In this document: positions 36,435 to 57,724 of the stretch, one piece after another
How the letters are laid out: each line of letters begins with the position of its first letter
Position numbering within the stretch: the stretch's first letter is position 1
Source of the DNA: Flaviflexus ciconiae
GTDB lineage: Bacteria > Actinomycetota > Actinomycetes > Actinomycetales > Actinomycetaceae
NCBI RefSeq assembly: GCF_003971195.1
Contig: NZ_CP034593.1
Coordinates: forward strand, 1,984,001 to 2,048,000
Direction: 5' to 3'
DNA length: 64,000 nt
Position numbers and translations under genes: made by a program
Notes under the pieces: generated by a model
Seen by the model: the letters and a program-made list of their open reading frames with translations, nothing else
Databases searched by the model: none
What the model was told of the DNA's origin: nothing

Positions 36435-36800
36435 ATGTCAATTATTGAGTTCGACCGGGATGCTGCCGGTGTCGTCGCCAATAGGGACTGGACTGATTCG
36501 CAGACCTTTACCAATATTGCAGTCGGCGTGGGCGAGCTGGTATGGAAGCCGAACCGCGTCTTTGTTGAGCTTCCAGAGGACACTGTCGGGGGAGCGGGCA
36601 AGACCGACAATGGTGGCCGTATCGAGCTCAAGAACGAAGCGAAGTACGCTCTCGAGACCATCCATCTGATCGTCCAGGAGTTCTCAGACGCATGTGGCCT
36701 GCTAGGCTCTGGCGTCTCGGAGACCTCCATGAACTTTGATGCTTCAGAGGCGCAGGCAACAGCAGACTTCGACTTCCTGACGAGTGAGGTGGCTAGCTAA
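36435..36800 (+). CDS. Small protein paired with the 891-residue protein; possible type VII secretion partner
   Basis: 121 residues, no signal peptide. The N-terminal half is beta-like (IIEFDRDAAGVV, LVWKPNRVFVEL), and the C-terminal half is helical (AKYALETIHLIVQEFSDACG). The stop TAA shares its last base with the ATG of the next gene (TAATG), so the two products are made together and probably bind each other. In type VII systems small helical proteins of this size are often encoded directly before a large substrate. It has no WxG motif, so this is inference from position and size. It could also be an antitoxin or chaperone. Confidence 0.55.
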   Translation: MSIIEFDRDAAGVVANRDWTDSQTFTNIAVGVGELVWKPNRVFVELPEDTVGGAGKTDNGGRIELKNEAKYALETIHLIVQEFSDACGLLGSGVSETSMNFDASEAQATADFDFLTSEVAS

Positions 36801-39475
36801 TGGGCTATTCAAGAAAATCAGGTACCGCCGCACTTCCACTACCGCAAACCTCTCCAAGCCCTGCAGTCAGCGACTTCTCCTCCTCGTTCACAAATGTTGG
36901 TGGAGCGATTGGTGAGACACAGGTTGTTGCCATGGGCCCACAAATCGAGTCCTGGCTGGGCCAGGCCGCGAGCGCCTATGCCCACGAGAGTCTCGATATT
37001 CAAGCGCAAGCTATTTCTCTGCAGGGAATCCTGTCGGACATCAGCACCCAGGTCTCCAACTATGGTGAGACCTATCAGACGCTTGTTGACACGACGATTC
37101 CGGACTATCAGCAGCAGTGGGATGACGCGATCATCACGCATGACGAGAACGTTGAAGCAACAGAAGCCGAGATGGAGATCGCGCGTCAGAACACCCCCGA
37201 GGGTGAAACCTTCGATGATTCTTCCTTCCTGGCCGAAATTGAACGTCAGCATGACCTCCTTGAGGAGACTCAAGACGACCTTGCGCTCTACTACAATCAG
37301 GCGGTCACAAGCGTTGATGAAGCGGCGGGCTCAACAGCCTCTGCTATCGCTGGCCTGATAGATGGTTTCGTCCCGCGCGGGGAAAACGGTTCGTTGCCTT
37401 CCCGCACGGACATCAGCCTCGCCATGTTCGGCGGCAACGACGGACTGCTCGGAGCACAGAGCCAGTGGGAGTCGGCTGTTGAGGACGCTCCCGAGGCCGT
37501 CGAACTGCTCAACCAGACTGACGAATACGGTTACCCGACGCCCGAGGCTCTGCAAGAGTTCAATGAGCTTTACGGAGACCGGCTTGCAAACGATCCATAC
37601 TTCGCAGCGGCCTTCGCGGCAGAGCTACCTCCCCAGCAGGCCCTTGAACTGGCGGCAAAACTTAGTAGCCACACAGCCACCAACATGGGAGTGGAGTACC
37701 AGGGCCTTGCCGAGAACTTCCTGACAGATATGGGTGCGGGAATGATGGTGGCCACCGGATCCCGCCCCGTCGGCATCTCCGATGATGCATGGAATGCTTG
37801 GCAGCAAGCCAATGGCTCATTCGAGGTCGGAGAGCACGACGATTACGATGCCTGGCTAGGTAGCTACCTTGACGACATGAACGCGGCGGGCGCAATGCAC
37901 TATACGGAGATGGGAGTGGAAGAGCACGGGCGGCCCGGCTTCCACTTCCTGTCCCAATACATTGGTGCAGCTGCCGAGGAACACGAGAGCCTGGCCCTGT
38001 CCGATGCATTCCTTAACGGACACCCCGACTCAAGCGGAAGCTCTGTCGCACACAACATTGTCACTAATGACTACGAAGATTCCTACAACTATCCGGCCAT
38101 TAACGGGTTTGGATTTGATGGATCATCTGATCCGATCATCAATCTGCTTTCGGCAATGGATGGGAATCCCGAAGCCACCCGAACTTTCCTTGCAAGTGAC
38201 ACGGGCTTTGACTTCGGTAACGAGAACCAGAACATGACAAGCTACCTGGTTAGCCATCGTCCAGTTCCGTGGGGCGAAAACCTCCGTTGGAATGATGGTG
38301 GTGCTCAACTTGGCTTGATCATTGACGAAGCAACATCAATGGATGACGCGAGACAGAATCCCGAAACCTTCGAGATCCTCGATGGCTTCCTCGACGGATA
38401 CACCGATGGTTTGCAGGCCAACCAGAGCGGACTCCTGCAGTCTGAATCGGTCAGTAATTGGTTCACGAATAAAGACGAGAACGGACAGGACCTCTTCGGT
38501 TACTACAATCCGGAACTGCGCCACTGGGCGGGTTCAATCCTCGAGGAATACGCATCCGATCTCGCACGTGAAGTGCGCACGCCAACCGGGACTGAGGGCG
38601 CCAGTCCCTACACTCAGCGCAGCGGGTATGACGGCTCCGACTACAGCCTCACCCTCTCTCCCGAACTGCGCGATGCGATAACGGACTCCGAAAATGGCTT
38701 CTTCCACGACTTGAGTTACGACGAGCCCGCGCCGGACGACCCGAACTGGGCCACGGAGGCACCGAACTCGGCTCTCTCGAAGATCTCTGTTGCTGCCGTT
38801 GAGGACATGAGAGCTGAGCTCACCGACGCTCGAATCCGGGACTACAACGGCGAGGATGGACAGCTCGGCCGCTACGAGGATGCTGTCGGTGACTACGGCG
38901 CACTCCTTAGCCACATTGAGCTGGCCGACGAAGCGGCCGATGTGTCCAGGGGCCAGACCACCGATCAGCGTAATTCAACGGTACGGAGCGCACTCGACTT
39001 CGCAACCGATGTGTTCCCGGTCAGTAGGATCCCCGGCTTCGATGATCTCTCCGACACCGCACAGAATGCGCTCAAGTCCGCAACAAAAAGCGGACAAGAG
39101 ATGGGTTACGACGAATGGCTCTCCACATCGAACGCTGCGAATGCCGCAGAGGACCACGAGAATGAGACCGAAACAGTGTCGATCGAGCTTTCCGAGCTTG
39201 TTCGAGACATCAACATCGATGCGCAAAACATGACCGGACCACAGCCCGAACACATTCAGGAAAGCGATGCTCAACGCGACCCCAACCTTCAGATCCTGAC
39301 CGAGGATGGATACATTCTCCGATGGGAAGACATGACCGAAGATCAGCGGACCACGTACCGCAATCATGCGCAAGACTTTGTCTTCGGTGACGGCGAGTGG
39401 ACGGGTAACTCCGTTAACGACATCCCCCAAATCGTGAACGAGGCGTACGACGAGTCTAAGAGAAGCATGCCGTAG
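36800..39475 (+). CDS. Large acidic protein, candidate type VII secretion substrate
   Basis: 891 residues, no signal peptide or membrane helix. The first 180 residues are helical and WXG/LXG-like, with a long coiled-coil stretch (DENVEATEAEMEIARQ to LLEETQDDLALYYNQAV). The middle third is rich in aromatic and acidic residues and has segments such as MTSYLVSHRPVPW that recall actinobacterial DUF6571 proteins; that resemblance is from memory and weak. The C-terminal 100 residues (ILTEDGYILRWEDMT to the end) could be an effector domain of unknown type. No toxin motif was identified. It overlaps the small partner gene by one base and lies 1.6 kb before the eccC end of the secretion locus. Confidence 0.6.
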   Translation: MGYSRKSGTAALPLPQTSPSPAVSDFSSSFTNVGGAIGETQVVAMGPQIESWLGQAASAYAHESLDIQAQAISLQGILSDISTQVSNYGETYQTLVDTTIPDYQQQWDDAIITHDENVEATEAEMEIARQNTPEGETFDDSSFLAEIERQHDLLEETQDDLALYYNQAVTSVDEAAGSTASAIAGLIDGFVPRGENGSLPSRTDISLAMFGGNDGLLGAQSQWESAVEDAPEAVELLNQTDEYGYPTPEALQEFNELYGDRLANDPYFAAAFAAELPPQQALELAAKLSSHTATNMGVEYQGLAENFLTDMGAGMMVATGSRPVGISDDAWNAWQQANGSFEVGEHDDYDAWLGSYLDDMNAAGAMHYTEMGVEEHGRPGFHFLSQYIGAAAEEHESLALSDAFLNGHPDSSGSSVAHNIVTNDYEDSYNYPAINGFGFDGSSDPIINLLSAMDGNPEATRTFLASDTGFDFGNENQNMTSYLVSHRPVPWGENLRWNDGGAQLGLIIDEATSMDDARQNPETFEILDGFLDGYTDGLQANQSGLLQSESVSNWFTNKDENGQDLFGYYNPELRHWAGSILEEYASDLAREVRTPTGTEGASPYTQRSGYDGSDYSLTLSPELRDAITDSENGFFHDLSYDEPAPDDPNWATEAPNSALSKISVAAVEDMRAELTDARIRDYNGEDGQLGRYEDAVGDYGALLSHIELADEAADVSRGQTTDQRNSTVRSALDFATDVFPVSRIPGFDDLSDTAQNALKSATKSGQEMGYDEWLSTSNAANAAEDHENETETVSIELSELVRDINIDAQNMTGPQPEHIQESDAQRDPNLQILTEDGYILRWEDMTEDQRTTYRNHAQDFVFGDGEWTGNSVNDIPQIVNEAYDESKRSMP

Positions 39476-41055: not shown

Positions 41056-44000
41056 TCAGATGAGTTCGGGCGGTTCCCAGGCGATCTGAAGCTGTTCGCG
41101 GGGCACTTCGCGGGAACGGAACTGGGCACGACCGGGGTTGGCGACCTGGGGCTTGAGCTTGCCGATGATCTGACCATCCTCGGGCGATCCGGGTAGGAGC
41201 ATGGCGGGGACGGCCAGGTCGTTCATGGTCTGCATGACCGGTTCGAACAGGGCACGCTGTGCACCACCGGAACGCCTTGTCAGGATGATGTGGAGGCCGA
41301 GGTCGTGTGCCTGTGCCATGAGCGGCTGGAAAGCCGCCACCGGGTTGCCTGAGGGAGTGTTCACGAGGTCGTAGTCATCGACCAGGATGAATACTTCCTT
41401 GCCTTCCCACCACGACCTGTCGCGTAGCTGCTGGGGCGTGACGTTCGGCCCCGGCATGCGGACCTTCAGGTAGTTGGCAAGCCCGCCCAGTTGCTCCATG
41501 GCCTGATCGGCGGTCGTGTAGTAGCCACCCACATATCCTTCGGGGAGTTCGCCAAGGAGGGACCTGCGGTAGTCCACGGCGAAGATCTGTGCGGTTTCGG
41601 GGTGTAGACGCGGGCAATCTCGGAGGCAATAAGGCGGAGTGTGGCGGTCTTGCCTGAGCCCTGACCACCGTAGAAGTAGAAGTGGTCGTTCTTCCAGAAG
41701 TCGATCCCAAACGGTTCGAGCCTGGATTCGTTGATACCGAGGAGAATACGACGGTCGTCCCTGTCGACCATGGCGCGCACGTCCTCGATGGTGATCTCGA
41801 GAGGGAGCTCGCGCAACTTCGGGCCGCGTTCGCCCTTCCACGCTTCGTTAACCTTGGAGATCAGGTCACGGACACCCACCGACACGGTGTCCGGCGATTC
41901 TTCACCATCGACCCGCGGCAGGGCACCAAGGAAGTGGTGCTTGCCCGGTTCCAGGCCGCGGCCGGGAAGGCGTTCGGGCACGTTCTTGGCGACCTTACGA
42001 TCGATCTCGGAGTCGAGTGGGTCGCCTAGCCTCAGCTCAAGCCTGGTACCGAACATGTCCTTCACCTGGGTGCGGAAGTTCATCCAGCGCAGTGCAGAGG
42101 CCACAACGTGAAGGCCGAAGTTCAGACCGCGCGGCATGAGGTTCTGGAGCTTCGATTCGACCTGGTCGAAGTCGGCTCGGAGGGTTGCCCAGTTGTCGAT
42201 GAAAAGGAAAATATCGCCATAGCCATCGTCCGCCTCGCCAGCTGCTCTCATGCGCCGGTATGTTTCCATCGAATCAATGCCATTGTCGGCAAAGAACTGT
42301 TCGCGATCGTCAATGATCGAAGCAATCTCTGCCACGATTCGGTTGACCCGGTCCGTGTCCTTACGCAGTGCAATGCCTGCCGTGTGGGCGAGGTCCCGGA
42401 AGGGCGCAAACGTACCGCCGCCAAAGTCCATGACGTAGAACTGCACTTCTGTCGGGGTGTGAGTGAGGGCAATGCCAGCCATGATGGTTCTCATGAGGGT
42501 GGACTTACCCGACTGGGGGCCGCCGACAATCGAGGCGTGGCCACCCGCGCCGGAGAGATCAACAAGAAGGGTGTCACGGCGCTGCTCGTAGGGCCGGTCG
42601 ACTTCACCAACCGGGATTGTGAACGCACCGGCGCCACGCCATGACTTCGACACGTAGCCCAGGTCCTTATCCGTACCCAGGTCACCCATGAGCCGGTCCA
42701 GGGACGCGGGCATGCTGAGCGGGTCGAGCCAAACCTTATGCGCGGCCGGGCCCTGACCTTCCATGCGGTCAACCGCAATGTCGAAGGTGGTGTAGTCCCC
42801 TCCCTGCTCATCGACAATCTCGTCCTCGGCAGGATCGAGAACGTCGACTTCTTCGGGTTCCGGCTCTTCGGACTGGGCGAGGAGAACCGGTGCGGCCGTG
42901 AAGTTGACGATCGCAACCTCCTTCTTCTCTTCGCGTTCCTCGTGCTCGATGACGGGGGCGGCGGAGACCCTGCGACGGGGCGGTGGGCCGGACACGTAGG
43001 AGGCACGGAAGCGCCTCATCGTGGTCTGGTCTTCCTTCAGGTACCCGACGCCGGGGATCGGGGGCAGCTCGTAAGCATCGGCCACGCCGAGGACGGTGCG
43101 GGACTCGGCAGCGGAGAAGGTCCGCAGGCCGATCCGGTAGGACAGGTGGGAGTCGAGGCCGCGGAGCCTGGACTCTTCGAGCCGCTGGGAGGACAGGAGA
43201 AGGTGAATGGAGAGGGAACGTCCGAGACGGCCGATCGCAACGAACATGTCAATGAAGTCCGGCTTCTCAGCAAGAAGTTCGGAGAACTCGTCGGCAACGA
43301 TGAGTAGTGCGGGAAGCGGCTCGAGGTCGGTTCGGCCATCCTTGCGGGCCTTCTCGTAGTCCTGGACGTTCTTGAAGTTGCCACCGGCACGTAGCATTTC
43401 CTGCCTGCGTGCCATTTCGCCTCGCAGAGCATCTTCCATGCGGTCAACGAGGGTGAGGTCATCGCCGAGGTTCGTGATGATTGCCGAAACGTGCGGCATC
43501 CCGCTCATCCCGGCGAAGGTGGCGCCGCCCTTAAAGTCGATCAGAACAAAGTTCAGGTCTTCCGAGGAGTGCGTCATGGCAAGAGCAAGAACGAGGGTAC
43601 GGAGTACCTCGGACTTACCGGAGCCGGTAGCGCCGATAATGAGGCCGTGTGGCCCCATGCCCTGCTGGGCCGATTCCTTGAAGTCCAGGTAGACGGTCTT
43701 GCCTTCGGGTGTCAGGCCAATCGGGACGCGCAACTTGTCCCTGTTGAGCCTGGGCCGCCACGTCTGGGTCACATCGAGGTCGCGCACATCGCCGATCCCG
43801 AGAAGATCAACGAGCTCTGCGGATGCCTCGGTCGTAGCATCCTGGTCCTCACCGGAGGAGTCTTCGCCCGGACCCGCCATCATCGGACTGGTCAACCTGC
43901 GAGCAACCGCTTCGGCTTCTTCAATGCTGATCGAATCGGCTTCACCCGCGATCGGTTCAAAACCAACCTGGAGGAGAGTAAGCCTGCCGTTGCGGAGCGT

Positions 44001-45061
44001 GAGACGGATCGTTGACGGATCGGTGAGAGCATCCCAGGACTCGGGGAGGTCAATAACGGTGACGCCAAGAACCCCGTCGGGGGTGATGATCGGATGGTCG
44101 ATCGGAATCCGCACACCATCGTTAACGATCACGAGGTGCGGCAGTTCCGTACCCCCTCATCCGGCGAAAACCGGGGACGGTCGGAGATTCCATCCGGAAG
44201 GAGGTCGACAAGGCTGTCAGCGGAGGTGTGAACCATTCGTGCGGGGCCCACAGCATCGCGGATTCGTTCGGACTGGACGTGAGGAAGCCACTTCACCCAG
44301 TCCCAGTCAGACATGTTCTCGTCCTTGGAAAGAACCGCGATCTTCAGGTGATCCTCGGACAGGAACGAGGCAAGGTGAACAACCATGGCGCGGGCCAAGC
44401 CGCGAACATCCTTTACGCGCCCGGTCAGCTGAACCGTTGAAACGGAAGCAAGGTTGACACCAAGGGGCAGGCTTTCCAGGGTCTCATATGAGGCCATGAA
44501 TCGAGCCCTCGCCGATTCTGCAACCGGATCAGTTTCGGCCAGCGAGCTTTCCTCTTCTACGGCCAGCTCGGTTGCAAATGGCTGATCGGCGGAACCGATC
44601 CGGCACAGGAGAAACTCATCGTCGGTGGTTTCGCGTTCTGCGATTCTTGACCCCTCGTCGAGGATAAGCGGCAGGTCGGCGGGGTGCGGGAGGAACCACT
44701 GCGTGAATTCCCGCTGCATGTCTTCCGCCTTGCGGGCATTCTTGCGCAGGGTCGCGATATACGTGAGGTATTCCCGCCGGGATCCCGTTACCGCGTCGCG
44801 GTGCTGGACCCGGTTTCGGTAAATGTTGAGACCGGCTACGCCCACCATGGCAACCATGAAGGCGCCCGACATGAGCAACATTTGAGGTGATCTGTTTGAT
44901 GACAGTGCCATCACCGCCATCATGCCCATGGAACCGAACATTGGGAGGATCATGGCGAGAGTGCCCGTGATTCCCTCTGAGCGAACAACGTTTGGCGGGG
45001 TCTTGACGGTGACCGTCTCCTGAGGCGGAGGGCTCGGGCGCTGTCGTTTGGTGCGGGCCAT
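41056..45061 (-). CDS. eccC: Type VII secretion FtsK/SpoIIIE ATPase EccC, with two apparent 1-base deletions
   Basis: Motor ATPase of the ESX/type VII system. Three open frames line up as one 1,335-residue EccC if one base is added near 44,152-44,156 (a run of five) and one near 41,600 (a run of four). Part one (from ATG 45061) has two membrane helices and the EccCa N-terminal region. Three FtsK-like domains follow, with Walker A GATGSGKSEVL (near 43,630), GGPQSGKSTLM (near 42,520) and GGQGSGKTATL (near 41,660). The first domain has the Walker B VADEFSELL. The C-terminal part (QIFAVDYRRSLLGEL to IAWEPPELI) belongs to domain three, which normally binds substrate signals. GAGAGGAAG precedes the start. 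The frames may be errors or real. Confidence 0.9.
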
Positions 45062-45191
45062 ATGCTTCCTCTCGTTGTCCATACCGGACACCGAAATGCT
45101 CGGTCATGTTCTGCAACGGTCAGGTTCTTACGTCATACTAGTGCTTGTCCAACGGCCGTGCGGTTCGAGAACGATGACGCAAGGAGAGGTG
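45062..45191. promoter_or_regulatory. Divergent promoter region between eccC and the eccD operon
   Basis: 130 bp between divergent starts. CATACT at 45134-45139 is a possible plus-strand -10. AAGGAGAGGTG before ATG 45192 is the ribosome-binding site of the first eccD. No clear operator was seen. Confidence 0.4.
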
Positions 45192-46570
45192 ATGGCTACA
45201 GCAGACGTCATAGTCCCTGAAACCTCCCTCGTCACTCTCATCGTCGACCGGGGAGGGAAGCGCGAAGATCTTGCTTTCCCCGCGGGAATCACCCTCAAAG
45301 AGGCTCTAACCGCCGTCGGTATTGGGCAGCTCAGCCCAGCGACGATCGATGGTCGAATTATGAGACCGGAGGCTGTTCTCGGCCGAGACATTGTTTCCGG
45401 AACCCTCGTTCTTCTGAGAGACAAGGGCTGGGAAACCGGTTCCGAGATCACCAGGATTGATCATTCCGCGGAAGTGCGGGCAACCACCCTGTCGATCACC
45501 ATCTCGACCCTCGCCATCCTCCTCGGCCTCCTCGCGGGGCGGTAGGGCTGACCATCAAGGGGGCTGGAGAATCGGCCGCCCACCTCGTTCCCGGGCCCTG
45601 GGTCTACTTCGCTCTCATTGGCGTCCTCGTGCTCTTTGCGCTCCTGCTGGCGTGCCGGGATCCGTACGGTAAACCCCTCCTTGAAGTCGGCGGCCCGGTG
45701 GCCCTGATCTTTGGAGCATCTTCCCTTCTTTCTTTTGCTAATCCCGGTGATCACACGCACCAGGTTCTGATTGCCACCATGCTGGGCACGAGCATGGTGT
45801 CCCTCGTGCGCTGGGTGTACTGCGGCCGATATCGGCCGGACACCGGCAATGTGTGCATCGACGCCGCTCTCCTCACTCTCGCGGTCGCGCTCCTCGATAT
45901 TGGCGTCATGTCAGCGGGGCTCCCCATCGAGTTCACGGCGGCCGTTGTTTTTGGGCTCTGTCCCCCGCTGCTTGCGGCCATGTCCGGCTTCTCCATCCGC
46001 GTCTCCTCCGATGTTCTTCTCGACTCCGAGTCCGTCATCCGCGAGGCGCCCGCGGTGCGTAGCGCCTCGGTTGATGAAGAAGCAGCACGGCCCGATGTCG
46101 GGAAACTCATGGCAATCTCCTCGGCCCGCAACTCCTTCTGGGTGACGGCCACGTGCCTCGGTCTTGTCGTCACCACGCCTGCCATGGCAAACCTCCTCGC
46201 TGTTGAGGGGTGGCGGGGAACCGTCGCGTTCCTGGCTTTCCTTGCCGCTGTTGCCGCCTGTCTCCTCGTTCCTCGTAGCTCCTCAAGCCGGCTTGTCCGG
46301 ATCCTCCCCCGGGTCTCCGCCGCAACCATTCTCGCTATCGTCATCTGGTCGGGAACGCTCCCCTTCACTCCTCTCAAGCTCGCCATTGGTCTTGCCCTGA
46401 TCGGCCTGCTGTTCCTCGGTGCCAGTCTCCTTGTGCGGCAGGGACGCCCCTTCTATGGCTTCTCCCGAATCGGCGATATTCTGCAGACGCTTTCCGTCTC
46501 TACGTCCCTGCCGTTAACCCTTGCAGCTATCGGTGTCATTTCCCTTGTCCGAACCGGAGGTTTGGGCTGA
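45192..46570 (+). CDS. eccD: Type VII secretion membrane protein EccD, first copy, with one apparent 1-base deletion
   Basis: Two adjacent frames (117 residues to TAG 45543-45545, then about 340 residues to TGA 46570) together have the exact EccD layout. The parts are an N-terminal ubiquitin-like domain (SLVTLIVDRGGKREDLAF, then GRDIVSGTLVLLRDKG), a first membrane helix (TLSITISTLAILLGLLAG) and ten more helices, eleven in all. The second frame has no ATG or GTG near its beginning; adding one G to the GGGG before 45540 joins the parts (LLAGAVGLTIKG) into 459 residues. EccD forms most of the type VII membrane channel. This copy lacks the Gln/Pro-rich extension of the next gene. Confidence 0.8.
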
Positions 46571-46591: not shown

Positions 46592-48421
46592 ATGAATCAA
46601 TCAGGTGACCGCAACTCCCGACGCCAACAGCGCAGGGAGCAAAGGGCCCGCCAGGAGCGTCAGCAGCAGGGTCAGTTCCCGCCCCAGCACGGCCAGCCCC
46701 CGCAAGGCCCGGGCCGCGGGCAGGCACCGAACCAGGGCCGAGCACCCCAGCAGGGGCAGTTCCAGGGCCAAGCACCGGGCCAGGGTCCGCATGGGCCGGG
46801 CTACGGCAATCAGCCCTATCAGCAGGGACCCGGGCCTCAGCAGGGCGGCCCTCAGCGGGCACCTCAGCAAGGCGGGCCTTCTCAGGGTGGTCCGCAGCAG
46901 GGCCAGCCGACGGGTGGGCCCGAGAGCGGCTACCAGGTCCGTCATCACGGAGCTTCGGCAACAACGGCTTTCAGTCGTCCACCCCAGCAGTACGCGGCTC
47001 CGCCGGCACAGGGTGGGCCCGCGTCCCGCAGCGCGCCCGAGACCGCGCTGAGCGCCCCCGATGTTGCCCATAGCGCACCGGAGGCGTCAAACGCTCCCAC
47101 GGTTATTGGCACCCGTGTTGCATCAACCATCGGGGACGATCCGCAGGCATTCCTCCGGGTGACCGTCATTCACGAGGACCGCAAGGGCGATCTGCTGCTT
47201 CCTGGCAATATTCCACTTGCGGAAATCCTGCCGTCACTCGTTCGTAAGTTCACGTCTCTCACGCCACGGGGAGCCACCCGCGGTTTCATTCTTCTTGGTG
47301 TTGATGGCAAGCCGCTAAAGCCGGGAATGTCGCTCTTTGACCAGGAAGTGAAAGACGGAACGGTCCTCTCCCTGGCATCGCGCGTCACCGAGAGAGACAA
47401 GAAGTACGACGACATTGTTGAGGCCGTGGCCGATGCTGCGGAGTCCCTCAACAAGCCGTGGACTCCGGCCAACACGGCCACCACGGCTGTCGCCGCCACC
47501 GTTGTTCTTGTTCTCGCCGCACTCTTCCTGCTGATCAGCCTGCGCCCCGAGGTTGGCACAACCGTGCCAATCATGACCGGGGTGCTCTCTGTTCTCCTGC
47601 TTGGCCTGTCGTGGGTTCTGCAACGCATGGGGAGGTCCTGGCACGCGGTAACGATCGCCATCCTGTCCTCCGTCGCCGCGGGTGCCACCGGACTAACCGT
47701 GAGTCTCGATCCACTCACCGAGCTACCGTCGGTGTTTGGCGGTCTTGCCATGGTCCTCATGGCGGGGTTGGCCCTGCCGCTTCTGAAACAGTGGCGGGAG
47801 ATCCTGGCGATCCCCATGATTGTGGGCGCCACGATCGCTATCATCGGCGGGCTCTATATTGCCTTCGACGTCGCGATCCCCAATGTTGCGGTCACCATCG
47901 CCGGTCTCATCGGCGTTGCAATCCTTGCCGTTCCACAGCTGTCGCTGCGGATCTCGGGACTGGACCGCGAGCGCGAGAAGGTTGATGGGAAGGAAGCAAA
48001 GAAGCTCTACACGCGCGGGCACCGGCTCATGCTGGCCTTCTGGGTGTCCGTATCGATTCTTCTTCTCATCGTGGTTCTCCCGGCAGTTCAGACCGGCCCG
48101 TACGGCATCGCCGTCATCGGTCTCGACATTCTCCTACTCGTCATGGCCTCAAGAAGGTCCTACGCGAAGGTTGATGTTGGAATCCAGTACAGCGGGGCGC
48201 TCCTCGCCTTCGTTGGTGCTTCCGCGGCGGTGATGGCGACCTATCCGGATAGGTGGCCGTGGGTTGTCGTTGCCCTGCTCCTCGTCATGGTTGCTACCAC
48301 TGCCTTTGGTCTCGTTCTGGGTCGCACCTGGACGTGGACGCGGCGGGTTGCCGACATTGTCGAGCTACTCGCGATTATCCTCATCATTCCCGCAACCGTT
48401 CTCGCTTTGAAGCTCTGGTAG
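46592..48421 (+). CDS. eccD: Type VII secretion membrane protein EccD, second copy, with Gln/Pro/Gly-rich extension
   Basis: 609 residues. Residues 1-170 are a low-complexity, Gln/Gly/Pro-rich and basic extension (many QQG and GQ units), residues 185-270 the ubiquitin-like domain (AFLRVTVIHEDRKGDLLL, GATRGFILLGVDG), and residues 290-609 eleven membrane helices. This is the complete EccD architecture with an unusual cytoplasmic tail. It begins 21 bp after the first eccD and is followed three bases later by eccB, so the genes are cotranscribed. Since each ESX protomer holds two EccD chains, two different copies could form a heterodimer. Confidence 0.85.
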   Translation: MNQSGDRNSRRQQRREQRARQERQQQGQFPPQHGQPPQGPGRGQAPNQGRAPQQGQFQGQAPGQGPHGPGYGNQPYQQGPGPQQGGPQRAPQQGGPSQGGPQQGQPTGGPESGYQVRHHGASATTAFSRPPQQYAAPPAQGGPASRSAPETALSAPDVAHSAPEASNAPTVIGTRVASTIGDDPQAFLRVTVIHEDRKGDLLLPGNIPLAEILPSLVRKFTSLTPRGATRGFILLGVDGKPLKPGMSLFDQEVKDGTVLSLASRVTERDKKYDDIVEAVADAAESLNKPWTPANTATTAVAATVVLVLAALFLLISLRPEVGTTVPIMTGVLSVLLLGLSWVLQRMGRSWHAVTIAILSSVAAGATGLTVSLDPLTELPSVFGGLAMVLMAGLALPLLKQWREILAIPMIVGATIAIIGGLYIAFDVAIPNVAVTIAGLIGVAILAVPQLSLRISGLDREREKVDGKEAKKLYTRGHRLMLAFWVSVSILLLIVVLPAVQTGPYGIAVIGLDILLLVMASRRSYAKVDVGIQYSGALLAFVGASAAVMATYPDRWPWVVVALLLVMVATTAFGLVLGRTWTWTRRVADIVELLAIILIIPATVLALKLW

Positions 48422-48424
48422 GCC

Positions 48425-49777
48425 ATGGCATCGACGAAAGACATTCTTAACGCCCAACGCTTCAACCGGGCGCGGCTAATGACGGCCTTCCAGTCGGGCA
48501 TGCCAGAGGGCAGGGAGCTCACACCAACCCGCCCCTGGGGCGGGTTGATCGGCGGCATTATCCTCACGATCCTGCTCTTTGGTGTGGCCTGGGTGTCGAC
48601 CCTGTTCGCACCGTCCCTGCCCGCCAACTGGGAACACGGCTCCCTCATCACCGACGAGAACACGGGTGCCCGGTACGTATCGATCGAAGGTACCCTGCAT
48701 CCGGTCAATAACGCCTCGTCGGCACATCTCATGTTCCCGGGAAATCTCAAGATCGTATCCGCCGGCTCCGAAGCGCTGACCGAAGCAAGCATCGGGCCCG
48801 AGGTTGGGATTGCGGGGGCACCCGATCAGTTACCGACTCCAGAGTCGGTTGCCGACCCGACGCTCTTGACCTGTACGGCAACGGGCGGCGGCCCGTGGAC
48901 GGGCGTGAATACTGGCGCCTGGGAGGAGCCCGAGGATCGTGCCGTCCACGTCATCGTCGACGGTCAGAGCTACCTGGTGGCGGGCGGCTACCGGTACCCG
49001 ATTGGCGATGATGTTCATTCGCCCGAGCAGATCCTTACGGCTCTTGGCCAGCAGGTTGAGGCTCCCATGCAGGCGAATGCGACGTGGCTGAATGTGTTCC
49101 CGCAGGGTGAACCGCTCGTGTCGCTCACGATTCCCGGTCTCGGGGAACCCGCCGGCAGCATGACCGGCGTTGGTGACGACGTGGCGGTGGGAACTCTTCT
49201 CGAGGTTTCGGATACTGCGAATGAGGGAACGATCTATGTCGTTCACCAGGGTGGTCAGATCGAACGCATGACTCCCGTCATGATCCAGCTTTATGCCATC
49301 GGTGACGGCGCGATCTACTCCGATCCCCTACCGATCACGTCCCAGGAGCTATCGCAGCTTGAACTCATTGACGGCAGCACCCGAGGAACGTGGCCCGAGG
49401 AGATCCGAGGCATGCTCGAAGAGGGCGAAACCCCCTGCGCATACCTTGATACCGAGTCGGCTCAGGGCCAGGTCCGCTTCGTAGTCGGCAACGATATCCC
49501 GTCCACATCGGCGATGATGGTTGACGTTGCTCCCCAGTCGGGTGCAATCATCCGGACCCGCGCCGATTCTTCTCTCGGCTACACCCACCTCATTGACGAG
49601 TCCGGCACCATGTTCACTGTCAACCCTGCCGCCGACACTCTGGCCGCGCTGGGACTCAGTGAAGCTGACGACCTGACTGTGGGCCCCGAGTGGCGGGACC
49701 TGTTCTATGCTGGACCAAGCCTGTCTACGACGCAGGCGTGGGCGACCGTCCCCGAGGAATCGCGGGGCGAACAGTGA
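48425..49777 (+). CDS. eccB: Type VII secretion membrane protein EccB
   Basis: 450 residues: a short cytoplasmic N-terminus (STKDILNAQRFNRARLMTAF), one membrane helix near 40-60 (GGLIGGIILTILLFGVAW) and a large extracytoplasmic domain built of EccB repeats. The sequence ARYVSIEGTLHPVNNASSA near residue 80 corresponds to the conserved EccB block. EccB links the membrane complex to the cell-wall side and binds the mycosin, whose gene overlaps its stop by four bases. Confidence 0.9.
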   Translation: MASTKDILNAQRFNRARLMTAFQSGMPEGRELTPTRPWGGLIGGIILTILLFGVAWVSTLFAPSLPANWEHGSLITDENTGARYVSIEGTLHPVNNASSAHLMFPGNLKIVSAGSEALTEASIGPEVGIAGAPDQLPTPESVADPTLLTCTATGGGPWTGVNTGAWEEPEDRAVHVIVDGQSYLVAGGYRYPIGDDVHSPEQILTALGQQVEAPMQANATWLNVFPQGEPLVSLTIPGLGEPAGSMTGVGDDVAVGTLLEVSDTANEGTIYVVHQGGQIERMTPVMIQLYAIGDGAIYSDPLPITSQELSQLELIDGSTRGTWPEEIRGMLEEGETPCAYLDTESAQGQVRFVVGNDIPSTSAMMVDVAPQSGAIIRTRADSSLGYTHLIDESGTMFTVNPAADTLAALGLSEADDLTVGPEWRDLFYAGPSLSTTQAWATVPEESRGEQ

Positions 49778-51066
49778 GTTTCCGTGCCGGTCGCAGGGGA
49801 GCCGCCGCGGCGGCTCTCCTTGCCGTGTCGTTGTCGTGGCCAGTTTCTGCCGTGGCAACAACCGAGGATGAGACTCCGGCTGCGCCAGAGCGATGGACGT
49901 CATTCAACGATATTGCGTGTCCCCCACAAAGCCCGGACGATGAGGAGCCGCCGGAGGGCCGGCTATCCTCCTATGTTCTTGGCCTGCCTTCTGCCCACGA
50001 ACTATCGACCGGTGAGGGCGTTCGGATTGGGCTTCTCGACTCCGGCATCAACACCTCCCACGTGACGCTCGAGAACGCAAATATCGACGAGGGCGTGGAC
50101 CTAACGGATTCCGACGATGCGACGGATGATGAATTCGGTTCGGGAACTACGTATGCCTCCTTCCTGGTAGGAAGTAGCGACGGCCAGTACCCGGTGCGCG
50201 GCGTCGCCCCCGAAGCGACATTGGTGCCGATCAAGATCATTGATCAAGTCCCAGAGAACATGTCCCAGCAGTATGTGGCGGACATGGCAGACAGACTCAC
50301 CGAAGGGATCAACTGGGCGGTCGACAACGACATCGATATTGCCGTCACCGCACTTGCCCTTCCCACGGGCTCCCCCGAACTTGAAGAAGCAGTAAGGGAA
50401 GCAGAGGAGGCAGGTGTTCTCATCATTGCACCCGGTGGTGAACTAACAAGAAACGAAGATGAAGACGAGGCTTCACTGAGGTTCCCGGCGGCCTACGAGT
50501 CGGTCCTGTCCGTCACGGCCGTTACCTCGGCCGGTGGCTCCGTGCAGGGCATGCTTGGTGCCGACACGATCGACATTGCAGCCCCCGGACAGAACATCCC
50601 CGGCGCGAGCAACGCCTCCTCCTCGGCAACCTGCGTGGTTGGTAAGGCCTACCCGTCCTCCCTCAACGCTTCGATCAACGCTGCAGGCGTAGCCGCCCTC
50701 GTGATCTCGGCACATCCCGATGAAACACCCGCACAGATCGCCCACAGGCTGGAGACAACGGCAATTCGGCCGGGAGCCGACCGCAGGACTTCTTCCACGT
50801 CTTGGGGCATCATCAACCCCTCGGGTGCCATTGCCTTTATTGACGATGGCACGGCCCACGGCCCCGTCTCCCCCGCGCACGGCGAACAGCCCGAACCGGA
50901 GTTCATTGGCCGTGAGCCCATTGCCGTGGAACCCGATCCGCAACGCATGACGAAACCAATGACGTGGATTGGTCTAGCCGGTGGCGGAGCCCTTGCCCTC
51001 GCCCTGCTCCTCGGAGCGGCCGGGCTGTGGCGCGGGAGGAACGACTCCTCCGACAACGAAAAGTAG
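49774..51066 (+). CDS. mycP: Mycosin-like subtilase of the type VII system, predicted catalytically inactive
   Basis: 430 residues: signal peptide (RRGAAAAALLAVSLSWPVSA), subtilisin-fold domain, then a Pro/Glu linker and a C-terminal membrane helix (WIGLAGGGALALALLLGAA) with a short basic tail, the mycosin layout. The catalytic Asp is present (Asp89 in IGLLDSGIN). The GHGT motif reads GSGT, so the His is Ser123. The GTSxAAP motif that holds the Ser is replaced by SSLNASINAAG, with Leu297 at the expected position. It is thus expected to have no protease activity, while keeping the structural role of MycP in holding the EccBCD complex. Start GTG 49774 overlaps the eccB stop. Confidence 0.87.
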   Translation: MSFRAGRRGAAAAALLAVSLSWPVSAVATTEDETPAAPERWTSFNDIACPPQSPDDEEPPEGRLSSYVLGLPSAHELSTGEGVRIGLLDSGINTSHVTLENANIDEGVDLTDSDDATDDEFGSGTTYASFLVGSSDGQYPVRGVAPEATLVPIKIIDQVPENMSQQYVADMADRLTEGINWAVDNDIDIAVTALALPTGSPELEEAVREAEEAGVLIIAPGGELTRNEDEDEASLRFPAAYESVLSVTAVTSAGGSVQGMLGADTIDIAAPGQNIPGASNASSSATCVVGKAYPSSLNASINAAGVAALVISAHPDETPAQIAHRLETTAIRPGADRRTSSTSWGIINPSGAIAFIDDGTAHGPVSPAHGEQPEPEFIGREPIAVEPDPQRMTKPMTWIGLAGGGALALALLLGAAGLWRGRNDSSDNEK

Positions 51067-55743: not shown

Positions 55744-56034
55744 TTAGGCGCGGAAGCGGTTAGCTCCGGTGATGTCAGCCTGGTTCATGTTCTGGGCCGA
55801 GTTACCAACCTGGTTGGAGCCCTGGACGAACATGGAGTTGAGCTCAGCGGACTGGTTGTTCCACTTGAACTGGGCTGCGTAGTAGGCGGTCGATGAATCA
55901 CCAACGAAGCGCTCAATGAGCGGGCCGACCTGGCCTTCGAGGACCTCAAGGATGTCGTCAATGTTTGTCGCACCCTTGTTCATGTCCTCCTGGCCGGTGA
56001 GGAGCTGGTCGAGGTTGTACCGAATGTTCTTCAT
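55744..56034 (-). CDS. WXG100-type protein (WNN variant)
   Basis: 96 residues, the usual size of ESX substrates. Two predicted helices (NLDQLLTGQEDMNKGATNI and AAQFKWNNQSAELNSMF) are separated by a turn that reads KWNNQ in place of WxG. There is no signal peptide. It lies 29 bp after another WXG100-type gene; the two may form the heterodimer typical of EsxA/EsxB pairs. Start ATG 56034, with GGAGTAACACT before it. Confidence 0.75.
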   Translation of the reverse strand: MKNIRYNLDQLLTGQEDMNKGATNIDDILEVLEGQVGPLIERFVGDSSTAYYAAQFKWNNQSAELNSMFVQGSNQVGNSAQNMNQADITGANRFRA

Positions 56035-56063: not shown

Positions 56064-56381
56064 TTATTCGATGGTTGCTGTCAGGCCACGGAAGGCCGAG
56101 CCGGAGTCGAAGTCCGTGCTCTGGAAGTCAGCACTGGTCGCACCGAGGCTTGCTTCAAACTCATCGAGAGTCGCCATGAGAGCAGCAAAGCGCGTGTCCC
56201 ATGCGCCGCGGAAGTTGTTGAAGGAATCGGAACCTTCACCCTGCCACTGCGGACGCCAGCTATCGATCTGGCCGCCGATGCGGGTGTTTTCGGTCTGAAG
56301 GTCGGTCCTCGCAGTGCCAATGAAGTTCTTGATGGCGATAATCGCGCCGTCTTCGTCCTGGATCTGGTTGGGGGTTGCCAT
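56064..56381 (-). CDS. WXG100 protein
   Basis: 105 residues with the WXG turn in IDSWRPQWQGEGSDSFNNF near residue 47, and flanking helices. ATG 56381 is chosen because GAAAGGACTGTG precedes it and gives the standard WXG100 length; the longer frame to 56420 has no site. First gene of a four-gene minus-strand operon. Secretion by EccC as a dimer with the neighbouring small protein is the expected role. Confidence 0.82.
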   Translation of the reverse strand: MATPNQIQDEDGAIIAIKNFIGTARTDLQTENTRIGGQIDSWRPQWQGEGSDSFNNFRGAWDTRFAALMATLDEFEASLGATSADFQSTDFDSGSAFRGLTATIE

Positions 56382-56656
56382 GGTCACAGTCCTTTCGGGT
56401 AGTTTCTCGTGACTTGCCACCGAGGTGGTGACCCTTGGGGGCCTGGTGACAACTCTTGCACAGCGTCCGGATCATCGCACCAGTTAAAAATGACTTGTTC
56501 ACGTTCTATTCACCTTCCACTTGACGCAATCCGCTATCCTCGTACCGGCACAAGATGTGAACATAAGTAGTTGCAGTCCAGCGTCTCGGACCGCCCCTGC
56601 GACGGTCCAAAAAGTCCGCTCGAGAAGCTATCGAAAACCCTTTGGGAGAAGGCAGA

Positions 56657-57724
56657 ATGACAAGCAGAAAAGCCCGGATTAGCGGGGTTTCCCTCGCCGC
56701 CATCACCATGGCCTTGGCACCCCTCCCCGCCTTCGCGGCGGTGAACCAGACCCCCTCCGACGAGGCGGTCATCGATGCCGTGATCGAGCTCGGTGAGTCC
56801 GGCCAAGCAACCCTCTCAGCGATGGAAAACGGGGTAAAAACGGACACGGAAACTGGGGAGTCCACCCCAGCCGATGTGGAGCCCACAGAGGACGAATCGG
56901 AGCCCACGGCTCTCGCCACCACCACGGACGAACCCACCGACGAGCCGAGCCCCTCCGACCCCGAACCGGATCCGGTCGACCCCGACCCCACGGACCCGAC
57001 GGAGCCCGAACCCACCGAAGATCCCACGGAGGATCCGGAGCCGGACCCGATCGACCCCACGGACGAGCCCACTGAAGAGCCTGCGCCAACCGATCCTCCG
57101 ACCGGCCCTACTGATCCGACGGATCCGCCGACCGAACCGGTTGATCCCACCGATCCCCCAACCGACGAGCCGGGCCCCACTGATCCGCCGACCGATGAGC
57201 CCGGTCCCACGGACCCGCCCGTCGATCCGACCGATCCCCCGACCGAGGAACCGGAGCCCACTGAACCTCCGACCGAGGAACCGGAGCCCACTGAACCTCC
57301 GACAGACGAACCCGAGCCCACGGACCCACCCACCGAGGAACCCGAGCCGACCGACCCACCCACGGAAGGACCGGAACCCACTGAGCCGCCGGTTGACCCC
57401 ACGGAACCGACCGACCCCGACCCGGTCGACCCGGACCCCGTAGATCCTCCCGAAGAGGACGAACCAGGTGAAGACGCCAGCTGGCGCGAACGTATCGAAA
57501 ACGTCTGGGACAACTACAACAGGCGCAACGAGGGCTACGGCGTTAACTCGATCATTCCCCGCCAGGCCGTGAACGCGCCTGTTGCCCACGAGGAGGAAGA
57601 GCCCGAGGAGTTGCCATTCACTGGCGGATCGGTTGAATACCAGGCCGCCCTTGCTGCTGGCCTGATCGTTGCCGGTGCCGGATCGATCTACGTGTCCCGC
57701 AAGAAGGGCAAGCACGCCAAGTAA
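56657..57724 (+). CDS. LPxTG-type surface protein with Asp/Pro/Thr/Glu repeats
   Basis: 355 residues. A signal peptide (RKARISGVSLAAITMALAPLPAFA) and a helical head of about 40 residues precede a rod of about 190 residues built from PTDPP, PTEEPEP and similar units. Then come a short charged module (WRERIENVWDNYNRRNEG), the sorting signal LPFTG, a membrane helix (AALAAGLIVAGAGSIYV) and a basic tail (RKKGKHAK). It is thus expected to be linked to peptidoglycan by a sortase, which is not in the window. ATG 56657 is preceded by GGGAGAAGG. It diverges from the WXG100 operon. Confidence 0.88.
   Translation: MTSRKARISGVSLAAITMALAPLPAFAAVNQTPSDEAVIDAVIELGESGQATLSAMENGVKTDTETGESTPADVEPTEDESEPTALATTTDEPTDEPSPSDPEPDPVDPDPTDPTEPEPTEDPTEDPEPDPIDPTDEPTEEPAPTDPPTGPTDPTDPPTEPVDPTDPPTDEPGPTDPPTDEPGPTDPPVDPTDPPTEEPEPTEPPTEEPEPTEPPTDEPEPTDPPTEEPEPTDPPTEGPEPTEPPVDPTEPTDPDPVDPDPVDPPEEDEPGEDASWRERIENVWDNYNRRNEGYGVNSIIPRQAVNAPVAHEEEEPEELPFTGGSVEYQAALAAGLIVAGAGSIYVSRKKGKHAK
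57241..57300 (+). repeat. Exact 30-bp tandem repeat within the Pro-rich rod
   Basis: 57241-57270 and 57271-57300 are identical and encode one PTEEPEPTEP unit each. Adjacent units are degenerate copies. The repetitive codons open long frames on other strands that are not genes. Confidence 0.9.

Follow-up and report, generated by a model that had tools for sequence, protein, structure and literature searches.

Must a gene that stands where an ESX (type VII secretion) cluster carries its mycosin encode a protease? The question is raised by a gene at 49774..51066 (+ strand) of the window, by which we mean the whole 64,000-nucleotide stretch analysed, taken from a 2.83-Mb single-contig Flaviflexus genome. 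This pseudo-mycosin gene (mycP) starts with GTG and encodes 430 amino acids with a signal-like N terminus, a subtilase domain, and a C-terminal hydrophobic anchor, the first and last of these being read by eye from the sequence. Its 5' end overlaps the last codons of eccB (48425..49777, +), the product of which matched PF05108 with 180 bits and TIGR03919 above the cut-off. The mycP product matched Peptidase_S8 (PF00082) of Pfam with 88.4 bits, and its best NCBIfam model was the type VII secretion mycosin, TIGR03921 (178.4 bits, E value of 2.1e-52). This score lies below the model cut-off of 278.75 bits, which no single match reached in 213 genomes from the GTDB family of the window and which one genome reached only through summed neighbours. 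Profile-profile comparison with 16 intact mycosins by hhalign gave a probability of 100 and an E value of 1.5e-60. Around the gene lie, besides eccB, eccD (46592..48421, +; a YukD-like domain and a membrane domain), a gene for a second EccD-like membrane protein (45132..46567, +), the eccC ATPase gene (41056..45091, − strand), and two WXG100 genes, one esxB-like (56064..56420, −; PF06013 above and TIGR03930 below the cut-off) and one esxA-like (55744..56034, −; both models above their cut-offs); mycP therefore sits where an ESX cluster carries its mycosin. The initial annotation of this DNA had put a mycosin gene at its usual place after eccB, and the overlap, the Pfam and NCBIfam matches, and the ESX neighbours bear this out. 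These results demonstrate that mycP encodes a mycosin-related subtilase domain beside eccB in an ESX cluster.

An intact second mycosin acting in trans was considered and rejected. Only one other S8 protein was detected in the genome with PF00082 and TIGR03921, and it sits in an open frame of 1182 residues; the three TIGR03921 matches in the genome correspond to the mycosin and to two pieces of this frame. Since there is one other S8 protein and a single copy of eccB, no second eccB-linked mycosin was found in the genome by the two models and the eccB count.

The catalytic and oxyanion residues were located by three alignment routes, namely phmmer against solved subtilisins, MAFFT with relatives, and hhalign profile-profile alignment. 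All three agreed on Asp, Ser, Glu, and Leu at the four sites, with a gap at none of them. Asp89 (codon at 50038..50040, +) is the only triad residue retained. The catalytic His position is occupied by Ser123 (50140..50142, +), giving GSGT for GHGT, and the catalytic Ser position by Leu297 (50662..50664, +). At the oxyanion-hole Asn position stands Glu223 (50440..50442, +), the surrounding region being APGGEL as compared with xxAGNx; this further loss was absent from the initial annotation. The annotation had already read the catalytic His as Ser123 and Asp89 as the sole survivor of the triad, in agreement with the three routes. It had also placed a Leu at the Ser position, which stands, whereas its reservation that the Ser loss depends on the alignment does not, as the register agrees without a gap. 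Ser295 and Ser296 occupy the places of Gly-Thr in subtilisin, and intact relatives mostly carry Ser or Thr directly before the catalytic Ser; the loss at Leu297 therefore does not rest on a doubtful gap. By sequence alignment, the window protein thus lacks the combination of an Asp-His-Ser triad and an oxyanion Asn that marks an active mycosin.

A sequence error as the cause of these losses was rejected because the database record of the same protein (P0001), which differs by two residues besides the start and has the same Asp, Ser, Glu, and Leu, and seven close relatives (50–64% identical) carry them too. Both His and Ser are gone in all seven relatives, in answer to the proposal in the initial annotation that orthologues be compared for the same losses. 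A closest relative with an intact triad, named beforehand as a refutation, was found nowhere among the seven; more distant mycosins retain His and Ser. As for the other refutation, a His and a Ser in catalytic geometry, none of the three sequence and profile routes places either residue at its site. In the eight members of the clade, which are diverged and all full-length mycosins, Ser123 is invariant, the catalytic Ser position is Leu in six, Val in one, and Asn in one, and the oxyanion site is always Glu or Asp. G122, S123, G124, T125, and S129 are likewise invariant in all eight. Among the 80 loci found, there was one close relative (F. massiliensis, 63%), and the remaining loci, at 35% or less, were not used. 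It could be argued that the window protein is still an enzyme whose catalytic residues have migrated or are unusual, since Asp89 is kept, further Ser residues lie beside Leu297, and some pseudoenzymes have proved active according to excerpts of one report (PMC12037411). This is extremely improbable, given that His, Ser, and the oxyanion Asn have all been replaced and that no method aligned a His at the site, the sole invariant His of the clade being His96, seven residues after Asp89.

The dead mycosin genes are nevertheless constrained, as judged from their low dN/dS values. The value for mycP of the window and of F. massiliensis was 0.16, at a dS of 1.87 that is near saturation, and the same pair of genomes gave about 0.14 for eccB and about 0.20 for eccD. 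In pairs containing at least one dead mycosin, dN/dS was 0.06 for a pair from group g9 and 0.13–0.35 for four pairs from the Actinomyces-type group g3; five intact pairs with finite dS gave 0.04–0.42. Dead mycosin genes are thus under purifying selection, perhaps slightly weaker than that on some intact ones. In the family set, each of the 20 dead rows retains Cys49, Cys287, and Trp344 (in GWG), as do 38, 39, and 39, respectively, of the other 40 rows. The stem branch of the Flaviflexus clade is long (1.19 in a 60-row tree), as would be expected under relaxed constraint and equally under a new role.

The state of the neighbouring genes bears on whether mycP is being lost as part of a wider decay of the ESX system. 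The window has eccC split into three frames and the gene for the second EccD-like protein into two, so this strain may have no working ESX system. In addition, eccB is present in only two of the six genomes of the genus (g1), being absent from G096, G097, G099, and G100, and the system is therefore dispensable and patchy in Flaviflexus. On the other hand, F. massiliensis (L033) shares the gene order of the window and has eccC, eccD, eccB, and the gene for the EccD-like protein each as an uninterrupted frame, and the protein database holds an intact EccC of 1335 residues (P0153) that is 99.3–100% identical to the three eccC pieces. The eccC split is therefore specific to the window strain or its assembly, and the splits in eccC and the EccD-like gene are strain-specific damage or assembly error; homopolymer runs near the split points of the two genes explained nothing firm. 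Decay of mycP with its cluster is thus very improbable and is disfavoured for the clade, in which eight diverged mycosins are full-length and the one pair with DNA shows a low dN/dS.

We therefore turn to a role other than cleavage. With a probability of roughly three in four, the window protein is a pseudo-mycosin that has given up proteolysis and persists as a structural component of the ESX (type VII) machinery, as far as can be read from its sequence. In excerpts of earlier work, MycP1 with the S354A change still supports secretion while deletion of mycP1 does not (van Winden 2016, PMC5082899), MycP is required for stability of the ESX complex (PMC5082899; Bunduc 2021, PMC8131196), and a MycP5 trimer caps three EccB5 dimers and stabilises EccB5, with the active sites facing the lumen (PMC8131196). 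These excerpts uphold what the initial annotation had stated, that MycP stabilises the ESX complex apart from its protease activity. Its proposal that a naturally inactive mycosin would separate the scaffold from proteolysis appears to be supported by the losses in all seven relatives. The Flaviflexus mycosin would fold as a subtilase, dock on EccB, and clamp the EccB ring or periplasmic chamber together as MycP5 does; it would do this structural job alone, with no cutting activity, and the Flaviflexus ESX would need no mycosin cleavage of its substrates. A correspondence between the EccB-contact tryptophan of MycP5 and Phe355 of the window protein was not established.

The main rival to this explanation is that the dead protease has retained its groove and, within the periplasmic chamber, binds substrates as a gate or chaperone in addition to acting as a clamp. 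GSGT and its neighbours are conserved in all eight clade members, the active sites of MycP face the lumen in ESX-5 (excerpt of PMC8131196), and CspC, a dead subtilase, gained another role (excerpt of PMC6636752), all of which would suit such a function; but the Ser position drifts between Leu, Val, and Asn within the clade, and a bulky groove residue, which its authors place at the oxyanion hole, left secretion unblocked in mycobacteria (excerpt of PMC5082899). A gate or chaperone is accordingly rather unlikely, and a structural part remains the preferred reading. As such, the window protein resembles MycP1, MycP3, and MycP5 of the mycobacterial ESX systems in its subtilase domain, signal-like N terminus, apparent C-terminal anchor, location in an ESX cluster, and proposed structural role on EccB. 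It differs from them in having lost triad and oxyanion residues, whereas Asp, His, Asn, and Ser are all retained in the 30 loci of family f12, which is probably mycobacterial. Like the MycP1 and MycP5 variants engineered at the active site, which still support secretion in the excerpts of PMC5082899, it is a catalytically dead mycosin; the mutants carry a single laboratory change, whereas the Flaviflexus loss is natural, affects several sites, and is clade-wide. CspA and CspC of Clostridioides difficile are likewise subtilases in which catalytic residues are gone while a non-enzymatic function persists (excerpt of PMC6636752); unlike the window protein, they act in spore germination with no T7SS link, CspC has three domains, and the likeness is one of description only. 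No report of natural pseudo-mycosins was present among the matches listed in the open-access literature, as judged from excerpts. The debate over why ESX systems need mycosin, and whether its protease matters, has so far drawn on point mutants of a few mycobacteria, and natural triad-less mycosins beside eccB put the question of scaffold versus protease to evolution.

Catalytic losses were also observed across the GTDB family of the window. EccB is present in 54 of its 213 genomes, and coordinates place a mycosin beside eccB in 48 of the 54. The four sites read Asp-His-Asn-Ser in 29 of these mycosins, five are changed at the Asn alone, and 14 lack Asp, His, or Ser. The triad losers comprise both ESX-bearing Flaviflexus, both g9 genomes (Ser to Gly), and 10 of the 13 Actinomyces-type (g3) mycosins, the last being a warning against taking every gene at the mycosin position for a protease gene; Asp, His, and Ser are retained in all 25 mycosins of group g27. 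The states within g3 (DHAS, DHTS, DHAA, DQDA, DLDA, SQNS, and SQQS) vary, and the sites therefore fell in different orders. In L153 and L156 of this group, Asp and His are gone and Ser is kept (SQQS and SQNS). Closely related mycosins, one catalytic and the other not, offer pairs in which to compare substrates, EccB contacts, and regulation. In group g4, no mycosin was found beside eccB in any of the six genomes that have eccB; in the three inspected over about 18 kb (L276, L277, and L278), eccB and eccC were present and no mycosin was found, and g4 may have an ESX-like cluster without any mycosin. At least nine mycosin-model matches in one genome were seen in G154, G146, G159, G161, and other g27 genomes, and a second mycosin-like frame adjoins the ESX mycosin in eight g27 genomes.

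Phylogenetic analysis indicated that the losses do not go back to a single event. On the 60-row tree, computed without the motif columns, the dead label requires five changes, and starred branches force four of these. A constrained-tree test rejected a single origin of the dead mycosins across the family: Flaviflexus (g1), g9, and g3 as a single clade gave an AU p of 5.5e-67, the constraint groups having been named after the tree had been seen. An origin shared by the Flaviflexus and g9 losses was not rejected (p = 0.063).

Among 119 further loci, a mycosin-like frame was present in 99 and none was found in 20; the count includes repeats from family genomes (L219 and L220), places read twice (L218/L281 and L221/L280), and at least one weak match (L242, 66 bits). 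The best frames of the 99 gave 78 Asp-His-Asn-Ser, 12 triad losses outside the family, five changes of Asn only, one further family repeat, and three unreadable cases. The 12 losses fall in f25 (seven), f27 (three), f43 (one), and f10 (one). All ten triad losers of f25 and f27 adjoin eccC or lie within about 1.5 kb of it, and nine have an eccB match in the same stretch. Asp, His, and Ser are all gone in five of the seven f25 losers (L223, L225, L226, L227, L229, L236, and L238); the f27 losers (L231, L256, and L261) are mycosin-like, lie near eccC, and have other combinations of lost sites. The proteins nearest to an Actinomyces-type dead mycosin, the best 118 of 828, comprised 25 triad-lost, 82 intact, seven Asn-only, and four unreadable ones. 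The profile for the 119-locus and 118-protein readings was built from the family MAFFT alignment, and these readings are thus no independent check on it.

A class tree of 95 rows drew 26 from the 60-row family set and 69 from the outside loci, 95 of which were readable with a score of at least 110 bits (22 of the 30 f12 loci and four duplicates being excluded); it required nine changes of the dead label, seven of them forced by starred branches. A tree of 62 rows, made up of 49 of the 118 proteins and 13 earlier rows, required ten changes, six of them forced, and some of its dead branches stand apart from Actinomyces. Both were quick searches on hand-picked rows with SH-aLRT support only. Since losses are also found in other families, catalysis has been lost several times: Actinomyces-type, g9, f25, f27, f10, and f43 genomes have losses of their own, and the pattern extends beyond the window gene. 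The sharing of one loss by related species, together with its renewed appearance in other groups, suggests that mycosin is needed as a building part and not as an enzyme.

The oxyanion site indicates how these losses may have proceeded. In the family set, every row that has lost both His and Ser (14 of 14) carries an Asp or a Glu in place of the oxyanion Asn, and the same acidic pattern holds in all 17 double-loss proteins among the best 118 of 828, the organisms of which partly overlap the family set. In the f25 and f27 loci without both His and Ser, an acidic residue at the Asn site was seen in none of seven, with Val, Ala, or Pro instead, at a site that is less surely aligned in f25, where the Ser region is shortened. 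One protein, P0061, has the Asn change alone (DHDS). The family and its neighbours look as if they follow one course of decay, to judge from these residues, and the decay perhaps starts at the oxyanion hole. It is likely that proteolysis was dropped many times in Actinomycetota while mycosin was retained in the ESX cluster, so that mycosin would be primarily structural and its protease an optional add-on.

Two further regions of the window were noted. Proteins of 121 and 891 residues, without a Pfam match, are encoded near the ESX genes at 36435..39475 (+) and are possible T7SS substrates. The product of 56642..57724 (+), in which proline-threonine-glutamate-rich repeats and, at the end, an LPFTG-like motif and a hydrophobic tail were recognized by eye, is probably a sortase-anchored surface protein.
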